A stretch of 21,355 bases of DNA, from the IMG/VR virus record IMGVR_UViG_3300017719_000270, positions 1 through 21,355 of that record; one strand, given 5' to 3'. Within the stretch, counting starts at the first letter, position 1, and every line of letters starts with the position of its first letter. The position numbers and the translations under genes are program-made. Shown one piece after another: positions 9,511-21,355 of the stretch. The stretch is from a virus. The notes beneath the pieces were generated by a model. It was not told the origin of the DNA. It did not search any database and worked only from the letters and a program-made list of their open reading frames with translations.

Positions 9511-10668
9511 ATGTCTAGACCATTAATAGTAAACGATAGCACTACACCAAAGTCGCTTATTGAAATTGCTGATGACAAGATTTTAACTCATGCATGGAGA
9601 ATTCTTGATGAGTTTCAATCTAGCGATACTAATACTGGAAGTGTAGGATTGACAGGAGGAAGTATTCCTTCAGGAACAACTGCTATTGGAACCTTTGTAG
9701 ATACTAGACGCCAATCTGGTCCTGGTGCACATCCAGTTGGTACTGAAACATATAGTACTACATCAACCTTTTTTCAATATAACGGTACTGAAACAGAAGA
9801 TTATGTAAGGCCTCTAAAATGGGATTCAACATTAGAGGGAATTAGAGAATCATCAAATAGTGATTTAGATTCACATCTTATCGCAACAGCTTTGACAGTT
9901 TTAACATCTAGTGCAGATAATTATGGCTTAGGTCAATATAGATTACAACCAAGTGCTCCATCAGCTGGTACATGGGAGAACATGGGTTCAATCACTGATC
10001 GTATTACTAATGCCAATGGAACTGTTACAGAAAATACTACAAAACTTTGGAAGAAAACTTCGCAATCTGGTACGTTTAATACAGACGTAAAACGTCCACT
10101 TAAATTAGATACTAGTACTACACCAGATTCAATAAAAGAAATGACTGATGCTGAGATAAAGGGATTAGTTAAAAGATTTAGTAATCGAATTATAGAATCT
10201 GGTATTGGTACGTATGTAGTACAAGAAAATGCTCCTGCTAGTGGAACATGGGTAAGAAGAGGTGATGCTTTTCACGACGACAGAAGAACAGTAGCTGATG
10301 CAACTTATACTGGATCTTATACTGGATATTACGCAGGTAGCAGAACATATTCTGGAACATATACCGGAAATTATAGTGGAACATATACCGGAACTTATGT
10401 TGGTACAGCATACGCCGGAAGTTATCTGGGCCCAGGAGTTGTTTATTACGGTGGTAGCCCTCGGTATGTAAATGTATACTATGTTGGTTATTATGCAACT
10501 AGTTTTACGGGAAATTATACTGGAACATATGCTGGTAATTATGACGGAAGTAGAACGTATTCAAGCGATGGCTATGCTGGAGCTTATTCTGGAGATTATA
10601 CCGGAGCTACTGTACAAACTGGAACAGAAAGCATATCAAATGTTAGCCTATGGATGAGGACATCATAA
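9511..10668 (+). CDS. Tail/fibre-associated protein with C-terminal tyrosine-glycine repeat tract
   Basis: A 385-residue protein following the fibre gene, with AGGA before its ATG. It has three diverged repeats beginning near residues 4 (RPLIVNDSTTPKSLIEI), 98 (RPLKWDSTLEGIRES) and 190 (RPLKLDTSTTPDSIKEM). The second and third end in a similar 'Q..AP.[SA]GTW...G' block, as in QPSAPSAGTWENMG and QENAPASGTWVRRG. Residues 266-364 are dominated by YTG/YSG/YAG units, such as YTGNYSGTYTGTYVG, with 25 tyrosines in about 99 residues. The last 20 residues return to ordinary sequence (SNVSLWMRTS). Similar Tyr-Gly repeats occur in fibre proteins of marine T4-like phages as far as I recall. Likely a distal tail or host-contact protein; the family is not certain. 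Confidence 0.65.
   Translation: MSRPLIVNDSTTPKSLIEIADDKILTHAWRILDEFQSSDTNTGSVGLTGGSIPSGTTAIGTFVDTRRQSGPGAHPVGTETYSTTSTFFQYNGTETEDYVRPLKWDSTLEGIRESSNSDLDSHLIATALTVLTSSADNYGLGQYRLQPSAPSAGTWENMGSITDRITNANGTVTENTTKLWKKTSQSGTFNTDVKRPLKLDTSTTPDSIKEMTDAEIKGLVKRFSNRIIESGIGTYVVQENAPASGTWVRRGDAFHDDRRTVADATYTGSYTGYYAGSRTYSGTYTGNYSGTYTGTYVGTAYAGSYLGPGVVYYGGSPRYVNVYYVGYYATSFTGNYTGTYAGNYDGSRTYSSDGYAGAYSGDYTGATVQTGTESISNVSLWMRTS
10306..10605 (+). repeat. Tyr-Gly (YxGx) coding repeat tract
   Basis: About 300 bases encoding a near 4-residue period Y-x-G-x with codons such as TAT-ACT-GGA repeated imperfectly. An apparently longer unit also recurs (GSRTYSGTYTGNY near the start and GNYDGSRTYSSDGY near the end). 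A less regular stretch interrupts the middle (LGPGVVYYGGSPRYVNVYYV). Confidence 0.8.
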
Positions 10669-13107: not shown

Positions 13108-13671
13108 ATGTTTGTAATGGATGCAGTTACACAACGAGCGATTAAAAAATACCCGCACCTGGCTGCTGACATTGCACAATCATATAACCATAAACAAGTT
13201 CAATGTAAAGAATGGCTTTGCGATAATCTTGAATTTATTAATCATTTTAAATTTAAAAGAATTTACGTTGCAGGAAGCTGGTATGGAAATATATTGGTTC
13301 CTAAGCTAAAAAATATATTTCCAGGAATACAAATAAAGCTACATGATATTGATGAAGATACCGTGTTTATTGCCAAAAATATATTTTTTAAAGATGATGA
13401 ATCTGTTAAGGCAGAAGTAGTAGACTCGCGAGATTACCTCTACAAATATCTTGTCATTAATACATCATGTGAACATATGGCTCCACTTAAAGTACGCCCA
13501 GGAACATGCGTAGCACTACAAAGCAATAACTACCGTGAAATAGAAGAGCACACTAACTGTATAGATTCCTCGGCCGAATTAGCAGAGCAATACAAAGTTA
13601 AAGAAATATACTATGAAGGCGAATTAGCCTTTGATAAATATACACGATATATGGTGATAGGAAGAGTATGA
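13108..13671 (+). CDS. SAM-dependent methyltransferase-like protein
   Basis: 187 residues with the order of motifs of a class I SAM methyltransferase: RIYVAGSWYGNILV (about 51-64, glycine-containing nucleotide-binding loop), IKLHDIDED (about 77-84, acidic end of strand 2), AEVVDSRDY (about 102-110) and LVINTSCEHM (about 115-124), where the strand-4 NTS stretch sits in the place of the usual catalytic motif. The loop has fewer glycines than classic GxGxG, so binding of SAM is likely but not certain. The start with AGGG 9 bases upstream (13095-13098) is preferred; an ATG at 13117 is the alternative. Its last four bases overlap the radical SAM gene (ATGA). It would methylate an unknown substrate. 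Confidence 0.6.
   Translation: MFVMDAVTQRAIKKYPHLAADIAQSYNHKQVQCKEWLCDNLEFINHFKFKRIYVAGSWYGNILVPKLKNIFPGIQIKLHDIDEDTVFIAKNIFFKDDESVKAEVVDSRDYLYKYLVINTSCEHMAPLKVRPGTCVALQSNNYREIEEHTNCIDSSAELAEQYKVKEIYYEGELAFDKYTRYMVIGRV
13633..13640 (+). promoter_or_regulatory. Possible late promoter for the large radical SAM gene
   Basis: GATAAATA fits NATAAATA and ends 27 bases before the ATG at 13668, the same spacing as the stronger-looking element at 18582. An AGGAAGAG ribosome site follows before the start. It lies inside the methyltransferase-like gene. Confidence 0.4.
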
Positions 13672-14975
13672 AAGAAACTTTAGATGATATTAAAGAAGAT
13701 AAAAACTGGTTTTGCCCTCTTCCTTTTAATCACATATACTCAAACTCTGATGGCTCATGGATGCCTTGCTGTTTAAGTAGACCTACTATAGTACCAGATA
13801 AGAACATTATTTCTTCTGATAAAAAAATAATGCATAACACTGAAAACACTTCAATGATTGATTGGTGGAAATCTGATACTATGAATGGTATCAGAGATGA
13901 AATGATAGGTAAAAGTAAAGAAACAAAGCTTACTGATCATTACTGCTTTAAGTGTAAAAATCAAGAAAGAGTAGAGGGTACATCTTCTAGGATAGGTTGG
14001 AAGAACTCTGTATTAGGTACTCTAAGTCACCATAAATCATCAATGGCCTCAATCGTAGCTGTCGATTCTTATAAAGATTGTAATGAGATGGATTTGTCAG
14101 ATATTGACGATCGGTTTTTAAGTTTAAAATTAAGAATATTTGGAAACTTGTGCAACCTATCGTGCTATATGTGTTGGCCTCATAATTCTAGTACACGAAT
14201 TAATGATGTTAAAAAGCTGCCAAATGAGTATAAAGACATGTGGTTTAAGAGCAATGTAACTGATGACGGTATTCCAAAAAGTATTTCTAAAGTAAATAAA
14301 GATCAATTCCAAAGCTCGTTAGAGCAAATAAAAGATATTGCCCATCTAATTTCTTCTATTAAAATTACAGGTGGTGAGCCTATGATGATGGATAATCATT
14401 ACAGACTCCTCGATTTGCTTATTGATTCCGGAGACGCCAGGCATATCCAATTAAGATATCAAACAAACTTTACTAAGTTTAGTAGAGGTGAAGAAGCCTT
14501 TTTTAAATATATGAAAGAATTTAAAAGCGTGGCTGTGCACATCTCTATTGATAGTGTAGGTAAATATGATGAGTATATTAGAAAAAATGGAAGTACCGAT
14601 ATTGTAAATAAAAACATAGATAAATTACGAAATCTACCTAATGTTTCTTTTGGAATTGCAAATACAGTATCAATGTTAAGTATACTAAATCATGCTGAGT
14701 TTCATGAAAAGTGGAAAGACGTATATGTTAATTATTTTGTGTTAACAGCTCCTGACTATCTTTCTGTAAAACATCTTCCTGATAAAATCAAACAAAGATT
14801 AATAACAGAGACTACACAAGAAAGCGTTATAAAAATGCTAAAACAAGAAAGAGACGATTCTCAATTTCAGATAGCTATTAAGTATTGTTTAGATCTTGAT
14901 ATGCTATATAAAAGAAATAAAGGAATATTCGACCTTTGGCCTGAATTAGAGGAATACTATGTACAACCCAGCTGA
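13668..14975 (+). CDS. Radical SAM protein with N-terminal twitch/SPASM-like cysteine domain
   Basis: 435 residues. A radical SAM core begins near residue 155 with LRIFGNLCNLSCYMC: C162, C166 and C169 form the CxxxCxxC motif that binds the [4Fe-4S] cluster. K-I-T-GGEP (GGEP at 235-238) is the motif contacting SAM. The N-terminus carries another cysteine set: C16 in FCPLPFNHIY, C34-C35 in WMPCCLS and C93/C96 in CFKC. This is the pattern of a twitch/SPASM-like domain that would hold an auxiliary iron-sulphur cluster, here placed before the core. Proteins of this layout are known from T4-like marine phages. The reaction and substrate are unknown. The start overlaps the methyltransferase-like gene by 4 bases, and its end overlaps the next radical SAM gene by 17 bases. 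Confidence 0.8.
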   Translation: MKETLDDIKEDKNWFCPLPFNHIYSNSDGSWMPCCLSRPTIVPDKNIISSDKKIMHNTENTSMIDWWKSDTMNGIRDEMIGKSKETKLTDHYCFKCKNQERVEGTSSRIGWKNSVLGTLSHHKSSMASIVAVDSYKDCNEMDLSDIDDRFLSLKLRIFGNLCNLSCYMCWPHNSSTRINDVKKLPNEYKDMWFKSNVTDDGIPKSISKVNKDQFQSSLEQIKDIAHLISSIKITGGEPMMMDNHYRLLDLLIDSGDARHIQLRYQTNFTKFSRGEEAFFKYMKEFKSVAVHISIDSVGKYDEYIRKNGSTDIVNKNIDKLRNLPNVSFGIANTVSMLSILNHAEFHEKWKDVYVNYFVLTAPDYLSVKHLPDKIKQRLITETTQESVIKMLKQERDDSQFQIAIKYCLDLDMLYKRNKGIFDLWPELEEYYVQPS

Positions 14976-15621
14976 TAATTTAGAATTCTTTGGTCGTAAT
15001 ATTAATCTAGATATTACTCATAGATGCGTTCTTCAATGTCCAAGATGTATGAGACAATTTAAACCAGGTTTACATAAAAGAGGACATGATATATCTGTTG
15101 AAGACTATGAAAAAATATGCAAGGCATGGCATACGGTTCTTCTCTGTGGTCAAATGGGAGATCCAATATATCATGCAAAACTTCATGATCTATTAGATGT
15201 TAATATAAAACAAAAGAATCGTTTACAGATATCTACAAATGGTCATGGCAAAAAAGACGAATGGTGGGATACATCTTTTGCTAAGACACGTAAGATGACT
15301 AGTCATGAGTGGATATTTGGTATAGACGGTTTACCCAAAGATAGTCATGTACATCGTGTTAATCAAAATGGTGAAGCTGTTTTTGAAAAAATGGTTGAAG
15401 GTGCAAAGCTAGGCAATAATATACTCTGGCAGTATATCGTTTTTAAATATAATGAGAACGATATTGAAGAAGCTACTCAACTGGCCAGAGATAATAATAT
15501 TAAATTCGTTCTCTTAGAATCAAGTAGATGGCTAGGAGAAGACGATCCGCTTCGGCCATCTAAACATTATATTGATAGAACACTTGGACGTGAGATCGAA
15601 ATGTTAGGAACACAAGTATGA
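14959..15621 (+). CDS. Small radical SAM protein, copy 1
   Basis: 220 residues, a compact radical SAM core without its own auxiliary domain. LDITHRCVLQCPRCMR gives C23, C27 and C30 (CxxxCxxC cluster site). LCGQMGDPIYH stands where the GGE motif normally lies, and the ISTNGHGKK segment is typical of the third strand. The C-terminus contains WQYIVFKYNENDIEEA and DPLRPSKH. The ATG has AGAGG 6 bases upstream and lies inside the end of the preceding radical SAM gene. Its stop overlaps the start of the partner gene at 15618 by 4 bases. The protein is clearly a paralogue of the gene at 16810. It probably works with the neighbouring cysteine-rich protein, which would supply the missing twitch-type domain. 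Confidence 0.8.
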   Translation: MYNPADNLEFFGRNINLDITHRCVLQCPRCMRQFKPGLHKRGHDISVEDYEKICKAWHTVLLCGQMGDPIYHAKLHDLLDVNIKQKNRLQISTNGHGKKDEWWDTSFAKTRKMTSHEWIFGIDGLPKDSHVHRVNQNGEAVFEKMVEGAKLGNNILWQYIVFKYNENDIEEATQLARDNNIKFVLLESSRWLGEDDPLRPSKHYIDRTLGREIEMLGTQV

Positions 15622-15989
15622 GTAAAATTATAGTAAGCGATCTTGCAAGCGATAGGCCCAAGCTGACGAAAGAACAAATAAGGGATATGGAAGTAAAACT
15701 ATATCCCAGATGTTTAGATCTAGAACAAAGGAAACCACCAGCATATAGTGCAGCAGGATATATTCTTCCATGTTGTTGGGCAGATACTGCTAAATGGGAT
15801 GGTTTTGAAAAACTTGTTCAAGAGCATTTACATATAAGTAATGTTGATGATGTTGATGAGATACTGTTTTCTGATGAATGGGATGAGTTTTTTCATAATC
15901 TAATAGAAAATCCTATAATGGCTCCTCGTGTGTGCAAGGTTAAATGCTGCACAAAGATGTCATTTAAGTCAAAATTTGTAGTTAAATAG
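15618..15989 (+). CDS. Standalone cysteine-rich twitch/SPASM-like partner, copy 1
   Basis: 123 residues with six cysteines: C32 (YPRCL), C52-C53 (AAGYILPCCWAD), and C106, C110, C111 (VCKVKCCT). This order (single Cys, then CC after about 20 residues, then a Cys cluster about 53 residues later) matches the N-terminal domain of the radical SAM protein at 13668 (C16, C34-C35, C93/C96). It is therefore read as a separate auxiliary-cluster domain. Start and stop codons overlap the upstream radical SAM gene (ATGA), which supports equal expression and a complex. It has no catalytic motif of its own. It could alternatively be a small zinc protein, but the pairing repeats at 17465, which argues for a true partnership. 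Confidence 0.65.
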   Translation: MSKIIVSDLASDRPKLTKEQIRDMEVKLYPRCLDLEQRKPPAYSAAGYILPCCWADTAKWDGFEKLVQEHLHISNVDDVDEILFSDEWDEFFHNLIENPIMAPRVCKVKCCTKMSFKSKFVVK

Positions 15990-15998
15990 AGGTGTAAT

Positions 15999-16808
15999 AT
16001 GAGGTTAACAGTAGGAGATAAATCAATAGGTTTTTTTGATTTTGATTATAAGAAACTTGCTGACGGTAATAGAATAGGTGTGTCTTTATCTGGTGGTACT
16101 GATTCAGCAATTCTTTTTTATCTTATGGCAAAACACTTACCAAATGATGTGATTTTAGTACCGTGGTCTTCATATGAAGAGTCAGATAATCCGTTAAAAG
16201 AAAGGCCTCTTACTATAGAAGCAGCTGAAGAAATTGTAGATTTTGTTAGGAATGCATTTCCAAATGCAAACATTGCTGAGCATCATAAGTTTACATTTGA
16301 CAGAAATTGTCCAATAGCATATGAAAAAGCTAAGCTTAAAAATGTGCCATCTTGGGATTGTTATCCTATGGCCATATTAGGTGTAGTCAAAATGGTACTG
16401 ATGCAAGAGGAAGAGACAAAATCATTCGACAGTAAAAACATCGGCATGCTTGTCGGAGGAATAACAATGAATCCTCCTGTTAAAGATATGGAAAGCGATT
16501 GGAGACCTTCAGGGTGGAAACATCCATTAGGCCCAAGATACGAACCTAGAAGATCTAAAGAACACGAGACTATAGCATGGAGTGAAATAGGTCGCAGTCA
16601 CTACCACCCATTTGTAAATGTCGATAAATCCTTTGTTGCTGGATTATATGAACAAGAAGGACTTATGGATACACTGTATCCAATGACAGAAAGCTGCACT
16701 GGTTTTGCGTATGAAACTAATTGGTTTACTGAGCCTTGTAAACAATGTTTCTGGTGCTGGGAAAAATACTGGGCATTTGGTTCATATGACGGTGGATTAA
16801 CAGAATAA
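15999..16808 (+). CDS. PP-loop ATP pyrophosphatase, QueC/amidotransferase-like
   Basis: 269 residues. IGVSLSGGTDSAILFYL has the PP-loop SGGTDS (31-36) of N-type ATP pyrophosphatases, which activate a carbonyl by adenylation. The C-terminus has C233, then C247-x2-C250-x2-C253. This resembles the zinc site of QueC (7-cyano-7-deazaguanine synthase), though with a longer gap after the first cysteine. A SWDCYPMA segment with C and P-M lies near the middle. Relatives of this fold include tRNA thiolases, argininosuccinate and asparagine synthetases, and PseA/WbpG sugar amidotransferases. No other deazaguanine genes are seen here, so that pathway is not assumed. A good ribosome site (AGAGGTG) precedes the ATG. 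The next gene starts 1 base after its stop. Confidence 0.7.
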   Translation: MRLTVGDKSIGFFDFDYKKLADGNRIGVSLSGGTDSAILFYLMAKHLPNDVILVPWSSYEESDNPLKERPLTIEAAEEIVDFVRNAFPNANIAEHHKFTFDRNCPIAYEKAKLKNVPSWDCYPMAILGVVKMVLMQEEETKSFDSKNIGMLVGGITMNPPVKDMESDWRPSGWKHPLGPRYEPRRSKEHETIAWSEIGRSHYHPFVNVDKSFVAGLYEQEGLMDTLYPMTESCTGFAYETNWFTEPCKQCFWCWEKYWAFGSYDGGLTE

Positions 16809-16809
16809 T

Positions 16810-17478
16810 ATGTCTAATCCTTGGCTAAATCCAGAATATCATAGAATCAATGGAGGTGTTACTCTAGATATAACACATAGGTGTCTTTTGCAATGTAGCA
16901 AATGCATGAGAACTAGGTATCCAGGTCTAAACAAAAGAGGCAAGGATATGCCATTAGAATCTCTTAAAGTATTGCTAGAATCTAACGTAAAAGAAATAGA
17001 CTTCTGCGGTCAGATGGGCGATAGCATTTATCACCCAAAGTTTGTAGATATTTTAAAAATATGTAATAAGTATGATAAAAAAATTAAAATACATACTAAT
17101 GGGTATGGCAAAAAAGATTCTTTTTGGGATTCTGTTATTGAAGTAATGGATCATGACGATAATTGCAAATTCGAATGGATATTTGGTTTAGATGGATTAC
17201 CGCATCAGAGTCATTTATATCGTATTGGGCAAGATGGCGAAGCAGTGTGGGAAGTTATGAAAAAAATGGCAAAACATTCTAATCAAATATATTGGCAATA
17301 TATAGTTTTTAAATATAATGAAGATAATATTGAAGAAGCTAGACAACTAGCAGAAGAAAATAATATAAGATTTTGGAAATTTATATCTGCAAGGTGGGAT
17401 GGTGGATATGATCCGTTGAGGCCTTCAAGTAGATTTGCTTTAAAAAGTTCTAGAGAATTACATCATGGAAAAAGATAA
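16810..17478 (+). CDS. Small radical SAM protein, copy 2
   Basis: 222 residues, paralogue of the gene at 14959. LDITHRCLLQCSKCMR gives C25, C29 and C32 for the [4Fe-4S] cluster, and FCGQMGDSIYHP aligns with LCGQMGDPIYH of copy 1. Long stretches agree with copy 1: WQYIVFKYNE, NIEEA.QLA..NNI.F and DPLRPS. The last 14 bases overlap the start of the cysteine-rich partner gene. It probably acts with that partner, possibly on a related substrate or at a second site of the same molecule. Copies 1 and 2 have diverged enough that this is an old duplication or two acquisitions of the same module rather than a recent copying event. Confidence 0.8.
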   Translation: MSNPWLNPEYHRINGGVTLDITHRCLLQCSKCMRTRYPGLNKRGKDMPLESLKVLLESNVKEIDFCGQMGDSIYHPKFVDILKICNKYDKKIKIHTNGYGKKDSFWDSVIEVMDHDDNCKFEWIFGLDGLPHQSHLYRIGQDGEAVWEVMKKMAKHSNQIYWQYIVFKYNEDNIEEARQLAEENNIRFWKFISARWDGGYDPLRPSSRFALKSSRELHHGKR

Positions 17479-17836
17479 TACTCTTAGAGATGTAAATAGA
17501 CAAGATATTATAATGAGGCCTAAGTGCAATAGCGGTACGGCCAATGATATGCATGTAATGTATTCTGCTACAGGGTTTTTATTGCCTTGCTGCTTGTGCG
17601 ATTCAAGTAAAGAAAACCACGATCAATTTGCTTTATTAGGTTTTTTTGATGAAGAACTTAAAGTTGAAAATGTAGATAGTTTTAGTGATATAGTAACATC
17701 AGAAGTGTGGAATGATTTCTATGATATGTTTGAAGATAATCCTCATGGATTAGGTCTTCCTCATGAGTGTTTAAAATTCTGCGGGGTTTCATACGTTCAT
17801 AATCTAATAAATGACAATTCACAAAGAACCGGATAA
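17465..17836 (+). CDS. Standalone cysteine-rich twitch/SPASM-like partner, copy 2
   Basis: 123 residues, the same length as copy 1. C21 (MRPKCN), C42-C43-x-C45 (TGFLLPCCLC) and C102/C106 (HECLKFC) keep the cysteine order of copy 1 and of the N-terminal domain of the protein at 13668. The segment YSATGFLLPCC aligns with YSAAGYILPCC of copy 1. The remainder is acidic and has F.D.V.SEVW.DFYD-type sequence, matching the DEILFSDEWDEFFHN segment of copy 1. A 14-base overlap with the upstream radical SAM gene supports a two-protein enzyme. The next gene starts immediately after its stop. Confidence 0.65.
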   Translation: MEKDNTLRDVNRQDIIMRPKCNSGTANDMHVMYSATGFLLPCCLCDSSKENHDQFALLGFFDEELKVENVDSFSDIVTSEVWNDFYDMFEDNPHGLGLPHECLKFCGVSYVHNLINDNSQRTG

Positions 17837-18589: not shown

Positions 18590-18616
18590 CTTTATAATAA
18601 AAGATAGGAATTGACT

Positions 18617-19258
18617 ATGATGACTGATGATGAAAAGGCTTTATTTCGCTTATATACTATGGCAGATTGGTTAGAGTTTAAAGGCTTTAAAACAAAGAAA
18701 ATTCTAGAAGAATTAAAGCCATACGAAGATGACTGGAAAAGGTATAATCCAAAAAAGCCTAATAACCGTTGGGGTTTAAGTGTCACGAGTATTGATGGTG
18801 GACTTTCTGGTATACCAGATCTTACTAGCCTATTAGACTATGAACTACAAACCGGAATATGTTTAAAGAATGAAGACTTAGCAGTTCCTACTCCGGTGTG
18901 GACAGAAAGTACCGAACTAAAACGACTACTTGAACCATGGAAAAAATGGGTAACACGTTGTCATTTCCTACGTATGGATAGAGGTAGTTTTTTTCCTGAT
19001 CACAACGATGTTAACAAACATGATTTTAGTTATGATGAAATTAGATTAATCGGTTTTGTTGATTGCAATGAATATAATTTTAAATGGTTGTATGACGACA
19101 AAATTATTAAAGGTAGTCCAGGTTCTCTTTGGTATTTTAACGGAAATAAAAGACATTCTGTATTTTCAACACAAGACGGTGTGATGCTATTAGTTGTTTG
19201 TTTAAAATGGGATAAAGATTTATTCCTGCATATATTAGATAATAGTAAAGCAAGATAA
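18617..19258 (+). CDS. Aspartyl/asparaginyl hydroxylase-like 2OG-Fe(II) oxygenase
   Basis: 213 residues. HFLRMDRGSFFPDHND holds H129-N-D131, a full HxD pair, and GNKRHSVFS supplies H180, so the HxD...H iron triad is complete. WYFNGNKRHSVFS and LVVCLKWDKD match the late strands of the double-stranded beta-helix of this group, which hydroxylates side chains or small molecules using 2-oxoglutarate and oxygen. Its sequence is unlike the oxygenase at 11783. The chosen ATG follows AGGA by 8 bases; an in-frame TTG at 18611 is less likely. It is coupled to the permease gene by a one-base TAATG overlap, so the two belong to one operon. Confidence 0.65.
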   Translation: MMTDDEKALFRLYTMADWLEFKGFKTKKILEELKPYEDDWKRYNPKKPNNRWGLSVTSIDGGLSGIPDLTSLLDYELQTGICLKNEDLAVPTPVWTESTELKRLLEPWKKWVTRCHFLRMDRGSFFPDHNDVNKHDFSYDEIRLIGFVDCNEYNFKWLYDDKIIKGSPGSLWYFNGNKRHSVFSTQDGVMLLVVCLKWDKDLFLHILDNSKAR

Positions 19259-20526
19259 TGTATTCTATGCTGTGGTGTTTATCAGGCATATTGTCTGGTG
19301 TTGTGTTTGGTATTATACCAGGTGCAGGGCCGTTCTTAGCTATTGCTACAATATATCCGTTACTACTACACTTAGATCCGTTTAATATATTAATATTTTA
19401 CATTGCTCTTCTTATCACATCAAACTATACTAATAGCGTAACAGCTATTCTTTATGGCATACCTGGAGATCCTGCAGCGGTAGTAACAGCTAGGCATGGT
19501 CATTCGTTATTTCTAAAAGGTGAAGGTCACCTTGCTGTGAGTAGCAATGCAGTATCTAGCACAATAGGATCTATCTTTGCTATATCATTATTTCTTTTAT
19601 TTCTACCAAACATCTATATAGCTTTTCAATTTTATAATAGTACCATACAACTTGTGGTAATCTCATTAGCAGTAGTGCTATTAACACTGTTATCTAAACA
19701 AAAAATATGGAAAACAATTCCTTTGTTTATATTAGGAGGAGTGTTTGCAAAGATAGGATTTGATAATCTATCGTATAAGACATGGGGCACGTTTGGTTTT
19801 GAGTATTTAACATTAGGTATTCCATTTAGTGCAGTAATGATAGGCTTATATATTATACCAGAAATAATAAAGTTTAGAAATTTAGACATAAGTCAACATC
19901 AAGCAATTACTAAATTTGGTTATGCAAGGAATACATTAGGTGCTACAGGAATAGGAAGCATTGTAGGATTTTGGTGTGGACTTGTTCCAGGAGTTACTAA
20001 TATTTTAGGTAGTTATCTGAGCTCTAATTTACTTAAGACCGATATAAAAAAGATTGCGGCTGCAGAGGCTGCAAACAATAGTGGAGCATTAAGCTCATTA
20101 TTGCCATTAATTATTCTTGGAATACCAATCGTAGGTAGTGAGGTATTAATATACTACTTAATTCTAACTAAGGGATTCACATTCGGAATAGACACTCTGC
20201 CAGTATTTTCTGGTATACTATATTATATACCTTTAATATTAGGTATATGTCTATTTTTATCATGGATGTGTTTTAATCAACTTGGAAGTTTAGCATATCT
20301 GTATAAGAAATATAAAAATTCATTTACAATAGGCATTGTATTGTTTATTTCTATTATGAGTATATACATATACCCAGTAAAGGAATGGATGATTATATCT
20401 CTAATTGCGTTAAGTGTGTTTGGTTATTTCTTAAAGAATTTAGATACATTTCCTGTACTATACGGATATTTTTTAACAGATTTATTTTGGGATAACTTGA
20501 TGAGAGTTATGATAATATACGGATGA
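19258..20526 (+). CDS. tctA-like: TctA-family tripartite tricarboxylate transporter permease
   Basis: 422 residues, largely hydrophobic with many predicted membrane spans. GIIPGAGPFLAIATIYPLL (residues 18-36), YGIPGDPAAVVTA (66-78), GIGSIVGFWCGLVPG (231-245) and AAAEAANNSGALSSLLP (267-283), followed by LGIP (288-291), align with the large permease subunit TctA, which carries the repeated P-G-x-G/PG and EAANN signatures. TctA proteins are usually about 500 residues, so this one is short, with a distinct C-terminus. In bacteria TctA works in the inner membrane with the small TctB and the binding protein TctC to import carboxylates; neither partner is seen here. Stop/start overlaps link it to the dioxygenase and the ATP-grasp gene. 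It may use host TctB/C or act as an independent membrane protein. Confidence 0.8.
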   Translation: MYSMLWCLSGILSGVVFGIIPGAGPFLAIATIYPLLLHLDPFNILIFYIALLITSNYTNSVTAILYGIPGDPAAVVTARHGHSLFLKGEGHLAVSSNAVSSTIGSIFAISLFLLFLPNIYIAFQFYNSTIQLVVISLAVVLLTLLSKQKIWKTIPLFILGGVFAKIGFDNLSYKTWGTFGFEYLTLGIPFSAVMIGLYIIPEIIKFRNLDISQHQAITKFGYARNTLGATGIGSIVGFWCGLVPGVTNILGSYLSSNLLKTDIKKIAAAEAANNSGALSSLLPLIILGIPIVGSEVLIYYLILTKGFTFGIDTLPVFSGILYYIPLILGICLFLSWMCFNQLGSLAYLYKKYKNSFTIGIVLFISIMSIYIYPVKEWMIISLIALSVFGYFLKNLDTFPVLYGYFLTDLFWDNLMRVMIIYG

Positions 20527-21355
20527 AGAATTTAATACTAGGATATGAGCGTGGCCGTAACAAATGGGAAACTATTCATAGAGCACTGTTAGATATAGGT
20601 CAAGAAGCTGATGTAGTCTTAGAGGACTTTGATAAAATAGAAGGACCATATGATAGAATTATCACTGTGGCAGAAAGTCTATTGCCTATTCAAGCTGAGC
20701 TAGAAAAGAAATGGGGCCTTAGTAATCTGTCAATAGAATCGGCCAACATTTTATCTGATAAAAAATTAATGGATGATTTTTGCATTGATAATGGACTAGA
20801 GAATCTTATACCTGACAGCATTATACCAAAATCCCCAAATGATTTAGATATATTTAAAGATAGACCCTTTATAATAAAACCGACAATAGGTTCAGGCACT
20901 AAACAACATAGATCTTTTGATTACGTAACATTTAATAATCAAAAAGATTTTATGCAAGTTGTTGATGATTCTTTCTTCGATGATAATAAAAAAGGATATA
21001 CACATACTAACTTCAATAATAGAACTAGTTACTATATGGCGCAAGAGCAGCTACCTATAGAAGCAGATCTATACGCTCCATATTATTATGGAAAGAATAA
21101 TGTGATTTGGGTTAAGAGCAATATTGTGGTAAATACAATAGACGAATATAGCTATGAAACTAGATGTTTAAGCTGGATGAGTATTCCTACTAATAGTGTA
21201 CCAATAGATATAAGAGCAGAAGCTCAAATGTTTATTGATATAGTAACAGATGAGTTACAACTAAAAAATATGTTTTTCTCTGGTCCAGATTACTATAAGC
21301 ATGGTTCTAGCATTAAATTGATAGATGCTAATCCAAGGCTTGGTCAAGGCCTTCA
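20523..21355 (+). CDS. ATP-grasp ligase-like protein, cut by the right edge
   Basis: Open frame from an ATG that overlaps the permease stop by 4 bases (ATGA) to the end of the window: 277 residues and continuing. FIIKPTIGSGTKQHRSF (residues 116-132) looks like the nucleotide-binding strand and glycine loop of ATP-grasp enzymes. A later IKLIDANPRLGQG (264-276) has the D/E-x-N-P-R metal-binding pattern of that fold. ATP-grasp enzymes join a carboxylate to an amine or other nucleophile through an acyl phosphate. Substrate is unknown. Family membership is fairly clear from the two motifs; the subfamily is not. It was not among the listed complete frames because it has no stop here. Confidence 0.7.
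   Translation, partial: MKNLILGYERGRNKWETIHRALLDIGQEADVVLEDFDKIEGPYDRIITVAESLLPIQAELEKKWGLSNLSIESANILSDKKLMDDFCIDNGLENLIPDSIIPKSPNDLDIFKDRPFIIKPTIGSGTKQHRSFDYVTFNNQKDFMQVVDDSFFDDNKKGYTHTNFNNRTSYYMAQEQLPIEADLYAPYYYGKNNVIWVKSNIVVNTIDEYSYETRCLSWMSIPTNSVPIDIRAEAQMFIDIVTDELQLKNMFFSGPDYYKHGSSIKLIDANPRLGQGL

Follow-up and report, generated by a model that had tools for sequence, protein, structure and literature searches.

What would a T4-like phage do with a permease of the TctA family? The question is raised by the IMG/VR record IMGVR_UViG_3300017719_000270, which was analyzed whole (21,355 bases, hereafter the window, its right end being an assembly stop), and in which a first-pass annotation had recognized a TctA-type permease gene (tctA) in what looked like a T4-like phage operon. 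Comparison with relatives indicates that many uncultured marine T4-like phages carry a predicted TctA-type permease together with a matching, putatively secreted binding protein, and that some carry a candidate outer-membrane receptor as well. These products probably form a secondary importer that is specific to phages, depends on the binding protein, and descends from the tripartite tricarboxylate transporters (TTT); it would be active during infection without the subunit TctB.

Membership in the family is well founded. The window protein (Table 1) matched Pfam PF01970 (TctA) at 197.7 bits (E 3.4e-58, profile positions 1-415 of 423), far above the curated cut-off of 28.9 bits, so that the profile search by which the annotation could have been refuted returned the proposed family. 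A more distant phage clade, described below, matched at 191.4 bits. The signatures listed in the annotation were all present, namely GxxPGxGP (as GIIPGAGP, residues 18-25), GDPAAVVTA (residues 70-78), EAANN (residues 270-274), and LGIP (residues 287-290), and the overlapping stop and start codons that it described on both sides of tctA are real: TAATG at 19256-19260 joins the preceding gene to tctA with an overlap of one base, and ATGA at 20523-20526 joins tctA to the following gene with an overlap of four bases. The TctA repeat is defined by G-x3-G-x3-G-x2-PG-x-G in transmembrane helices 1 and 7 (PMC5812351). Two copies are expected because the TctA fold is duplicated, and two were found in the window protein and in 16 of 16 representative phage TctAs, with T in place of the final G of the second copy. 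Ten hydropathy peaks were counted in the window protein, compared with 9-12 transmembrane helices in bacterial TctA, and the terminal segments of the cellular proteins were missing. No sequence relative of TctA was found among solved chains, and a model of the phage protein (pLDDT 70) had no Foldseek match in the PDB at E under 0.1. The Yellow stripe 1 transporter, its best VIA-align match (Z 10.7), was set aside, since a score this low is not trusted for helical proteins.

The phage assignment was likewise borne out. The left half of the window contains a T4-type baseplate gene (baseplate wedge match of 346 bits) and tail-fibre-like genes, and T4-type structural and replication genes were found across the window and a whole-genome-sized relative of 177,460 bases (the 177 kb relative), which encodes tail sheath, terminase, major head protein, portal, DNA polymerase, and clamp loader. 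The terminase of the 177 kb relative shares 78% identity with its counterpart in Pelagibacter phage Mosig, which points to the Pelagibacter/OM43 myophage group as phage kin.

The annotation had allowed for a chimeric junction near the gene, which could then be part of a cellular TctA fused to phage sequence by misassembly, or else a host gene caught by chance and functionless in the phage. Viral contigs were scanned three times with successively larger sets of TctA queries, which returned 5, then 24, then at least 78 contigs with TctA relatives, the last from at least 72 samples and at 52-93% identity; the true number is probably higher. A chimera or stray host gene is ruled out by this many independent viral contigs, and the same relatives remove the concern for the window. 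Two features could be read in favor of an artefact. Two module-bearing contigs sit inside a Rhodobacteraceae metagenome-assembled genome (MAG), and a near-identical copy of the L005 module has an interrupted tctA (L006:10001-11269), which represents either a sequencing error or a decaying copy. The MAG contigs, however, hold the phage cassette itself and are most simply taken as phage DNA binned there; one of them also encodes a heme oxygenase (L031:1431-1973). Furthermore, when 16 phage TctAs were placed in a tree with 23 cellular ones, of the kind the annotation had called for, the phage proteins formed one side of a very long branch with 100/100 support, the cellular sampling being Pseudomonadota. 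Across 398 Pseudomonadota genomes the best cellular match reached 145 bits, versus 732 for phage copies. Phage TctAs are thus a single clade far from the sampled cellular TctAs. The median ratio of nonsynonymous to synonymous substitution rates (dN/dS) among relatives was 0.13 for both tctA and the binding-protein gene, and both genes are under purifying selection. Taken with the number of contigs and samples, these results leave the artefact a negligible probability. Among cultured phages no close TctA relative was found (matches below 30% identity, in seven records), and the binding protein and the ATP-grasp-like protein described below were found in none.

A second component of the module lies beyond the window. 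The annotation held that only the large permease was present, an impression that is correct for the window alone and arises because the record ends at position 21355, inside the next gene. In L030, whose TctA is 93% identical, a gene for a TctC-like binding protein is found at L030:7143-7931 on the minus strand. Across relatives the protein is about 255-265 amino acids long, starts with a signal-like sequence, and contains a pair of cysteines that is invariant. Its gene lay within 2.5 kb of all 37 distinct TctAs flanked on each side by 2.5 kb or more, and conversely a TctA stood beside 35 of 35 distinct binding proteins with enough flank; every phage locus without the gene is cut by a sequence end. 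The gene is mostly convergent with tctA, the exceptions being L070-L074 and the second clade, where it lies in line behind tctA. That the pairing outlasts rearrangement and a divergence of about 50% is an argument for joint action of the products. Outside the phages, the binding protein turned up in none of 385 alphaproteobacterial and none of 398 Pseudomonadota genomes, except for one MAG that holds phage contigs. A different phage solute-binding protein, of the amino-acid type (SBP_bac_3) and with a lipoprotein-like start, is encoded by the 177 kb relative (L102:10787-11821).

Structural comparison was used to place the binding protein. The best Foldseek match of its AlphaFold2 model was the TctC protein 4x9t, and the top eleven VIA-align neighbours were all of the TctC/Bug type (Z 9.8-11.6), including 4x9t, Bug27, MatC, TphC, and BugD; other solute-binding proteins ranked after them at Z 9.8 and below. 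Profile-profile comparison gave a weak signal in the same direction, with a P value of 7.8e-5 and a probability of 62% for cellular TctC as query, 15-33% for PhnD-type proteins, and below 1.3% for reversed controls with the phage protein. TAXI-type binding proteins were not supported as relatives (below 1%). The predicted secreted protein is therefore described, from its modelled fold, as TctC-like and not as TctC.

Regulatory sequences were also examined. A near-consensus sigma-70-like promoter (at least 11 of 12 hexamer positions) preceded the binding-protein gene in 19 of 59 cases, a count in which related sequences appear several times, versus 19 of 4000 random stretches, and was commoner there than before the tctA, ATP-grasp, or oxygenase genes. 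Cells commonly produce more of a binding protein than of its permease, and a promoter of its own fits the binding-protein gene since its product would be needed in such excess. The T4 late-promoter-like motif ATAAATA was found upstream of the binding-protein gene in 8 of 59 cases and of the oxygenase gene in 11 of 43 (background 90 of 5000), and upstream of tctA in none.

Two enzymes accompany the transport genes. An ATP-grasp-like gene was present within 2.5 kb of the same 37 of 37 distinct TctAs, and an oxygenase-like gene within 6 kb of 26 of the 37. The ATP-grasp-like protein had no Pfam match above cut-off and no PDB relative, and for this reason its name is based on motifs. The constant presence of modifying enzymes could suggest outward transport or exchange, by TctA, of a product of the ATP-grasp-like, oxygenase-like, and radical SAM enzymes, with the binding protein sensing or retaining that product, and how TctA is energised has yet to be settled by experiment (PMC5812351). 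However, a secreted binding protein with a strong promoter of its own fits import, as does the TonB-dependent receptor of one clade, and, of the neighbouring genes, those for radical SAM enzymes and glycosyltransferases differ between relatives, in contrast to the constant trio of TctA, binding protein, and ATP-grasp-like gene. Export or recycling is consequently considered quite unlikely.

The receptor is encoded in the second, more distant clade (L247-L277), where a TonB-dependent receptor gene lies directly upstream of tctA in 18 loci, several of them on near-copy contigs, so that the independent cases number fewer than 18. The gene overlaps the start of tctA in most of these loci and abuts it in the others. 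Coordinates include L259:5352-6992 and L247:5205-6992, with 16 further loci. The plug domain scored 62.9 bits in L259, and plug and barrel scored 57.6 and 75.4 bits in L247. TonB-dependent receptors are common phage receptors, and the module is flanked by tail-fibre genes, a position in which genes for host range and moron genes tend to gather; the secreted protein, permease, and receptor might thus alter or mask host receptors against other phages, as superinfection exclusion or envelope remodelling. Against this stand the retention of both repeat motifs and EAANN in the phage TctAs examined, the presence of both plug and barrel in the L247 receptor, beyond the need of a mask, and the strict pairing with an ATP-grasp-like enzyme, which exclusion would leave unexplained. 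This explanation is regarded as very unlikely. The annotation had listed uptake, export, and the blocking of other phages as options, and uptake is favored over the other two because TctA is strictly linked to a secreted binding protein and, in one clade, to a receptor.

Which solute would be taken up is a separate matter. A carboxylate is inferred as the family expectation, while the receptor, which is nearest to the vitamin B12 receptor BtuB, leaves room for a substrate that may be larger or scarcer. If TctA and the binding protein had been recruited to such a receptor, the solute could instead be a vitamin, a tetrapyrrole, or a metal chelate. In line with this, genes for DUF6580 membrane proteins stand beside the receptor in 11 loci, and the 177 kb relative encodes 5-aminolevulinate synthase (AlaS), HemC, a HemB-like protein, and oxygen-dependent coproporphyrinogen oxidase (HemF). 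Yet the receptor scored far under the cut-off of the BtuB family (TIGR01779; 91.5 and 177.6 bits vs 599.7), no cobalamin riboswitch was found in the loci scanned, no such receptor was found beside the module in the window's clade, and HemB occurred in only 2 of 22 records, for which reason tetrapyrrole genes were rejected as a general partner of TctA. Import of a non-carboxylate is accordingly judged unlikely.

Import by the phage permease and its binding protein is itself opposed by several observations. A search of 12 viral records for TctB (PF07331, the small subunit with four transmembrane helices) gave no match at E up to 1, with two clear copies returned from the MAG G012 as a control, and no other small membrane gene is constant in the phage module; characterised bacterial tripartite systems have TctB (PMC5812351). 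Phage TctAs are about 25 residues shorter at the N-terminus and about 50 at the C-terminus than cellular TctAs. The Pfam TctC family (PF03401) had no match in viral records at E up to 1 and none for the binding protein at 0.1, so that the name TctC-like comes from the fold only; the underlying model is of moderate quality (pLDDT 67), and PhnD-type proteins score similarly in one direction of the profile comparison. Moreover, the clade with the TonB-dependent receptor is not that of the window. A permease without TctB is nevertheless possible, since archaeal TctAs have been reported without TctB or TctC (PMC5812351).

From the TctA family membership, both repeat motifs, the linkage of the three genes, the signal-like N-termini, purifying selection, and the phage context, it is inferred that the importer would act as follows. 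The secreted phage binding protein would capture the solute in the periplasm and hand it over to the phage TctA, by which it would be carried inward on an ion gradient without TctB. In the second clade, the BtuB-like receptor would first bring the solute across the outer membrane. Once inside, the solute may be used or modified by the ATP-grasp-like ligase, often with the oxygenase-like enzyme. The annotation had envisaged host TctB and TctC as partners of the permease in an uptake assay; a need for host TctC is not the first expectation, because the phage TctA is strictly linked to its own TctC-like binding protein.

The module was compared to known transport systems. Like the TctCBA citrate transporter and the Bug/TctABC systems of proteobacteria (TTT family), it has a TctA permease with both repeat motifs and a secreted partner whose model resembles TctC/Bug structures. 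Unlike them, it lacks TctB, has a permease about 80 amino acids shorter, is carried by phages, includes a binding protein outside the TctC Pfam family, and is linked to ATP-grasp-like and oxygenase-like genes. By gene content the module is a member of the TctA family rather than a complete tripartite system, and most probably works like one. It shares the lack of TctB with archaeal TctA (PMC5812351) and differs from it in the strict linkage to a binding protein. The receptor of the second clade is TonB-dependent like BtuB, and differs by its score under the family cut-off and its absence beside the module in the window's clade. A tctA domain match has been reported on SUP05 viral contigs (PMC4164917); the genes described here are full-length, form a family, and occur with a partner protein and with phage hallmark genes. 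In a literature search of incomplete coverage, no paper was found to describe a binding protein or receptor accompanying TctA in a phage. The auxiliary genes of phages usually reinforce individual host steps. Cyanophage PstS, a phage-encoded periplasmic phosphate-binding protein considered to raise uptake by the host, supplies an ABC transporter of the host, whereas the phages described here bring their own permease too.

More broadly, and tentatively, a group of marine T4-like phages might encode their own route across the envelope (receptor, binding protein, and TctB-less TctA) together with the first-acting enzyme, so that an infected cell acquires a nutrient that its own genome need not take up. 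If so, the virus would install a whole uptake route whose parts (the permease, its binding protein, and in some phages the receptor) are kept together across about 50% protein divergence, and a bacterial-type TctA could work without TctB. The nutrient limiting these infections would be directly testable, the binding protein being a small soluble domain open to purification and screening, and ocean metagenomes could be searched for such phages with the module as a marker.

Table 1. Positions of the permease gene, its motifs, and adjoining features in the window.
Feature	Position	Strand	Basis or remark
2-oxoglutarate/Fe(II)-oxygenase-like gene	18611..19258	+	Invariant HxD...H (alignment); weak match to beta-hydroxylases
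Phage TctA-family permease, 422 aa	19258..20526	+	Pfam PF01970, relatives, phage clade, dN/dS
First TctA repeat motif, G-x3-G-x3-G-x2-PG-x-G (GILSGVVFGIIPGAG)	19285..19329	+	Residues 10-24
Second TctA repeat motif (GSIVGFWCGLVPGVT)	19954..19998	+	Residues 233-247
EAANN motif	20065..20079	+	Conserved as E-[SA]-ANN across phage and cellular TctA
ATP-grasp-like ligase gene, cut by contig end	20523..21355	+	Motifs KP..GSG, ID.NPR.G
Contig end	21354..21355	.	TctC-like gene follows ATP-grasp-like gene, convergent, in relative L030

Additional genes were observed in the 177 kb relative and in the window. The tetrapyrrole-pathway genes of the 177 kb relative (L099:4640-5857 and L101:17002-19440; G001, contig of L005) make up a large part of the pathway within one phage, and HemB is present in G003 as well. 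A phage AlaS has already been published (PMC11480375), and a search of that paper found no mention of hemB. The 177 kb relative also encodes a tryptophan halogenase (L107:5030-6589, 323 bits). Positions 13668-17836 of the window hold three radical SAM genes and an asparagine-synthase/QueC-like gene. The radical SAM genes at 14959 and 16810 are 50% identical to each other and each is followed by a gene for a 123-amino-acid SPASM-like protein, a duplicated split radical SAM/SPASM arrangement. Finally, a tail-fibre-like protein contains a long stretch of Gly-Thr-Tyr-Ser repeats (window positions 9511-10668).
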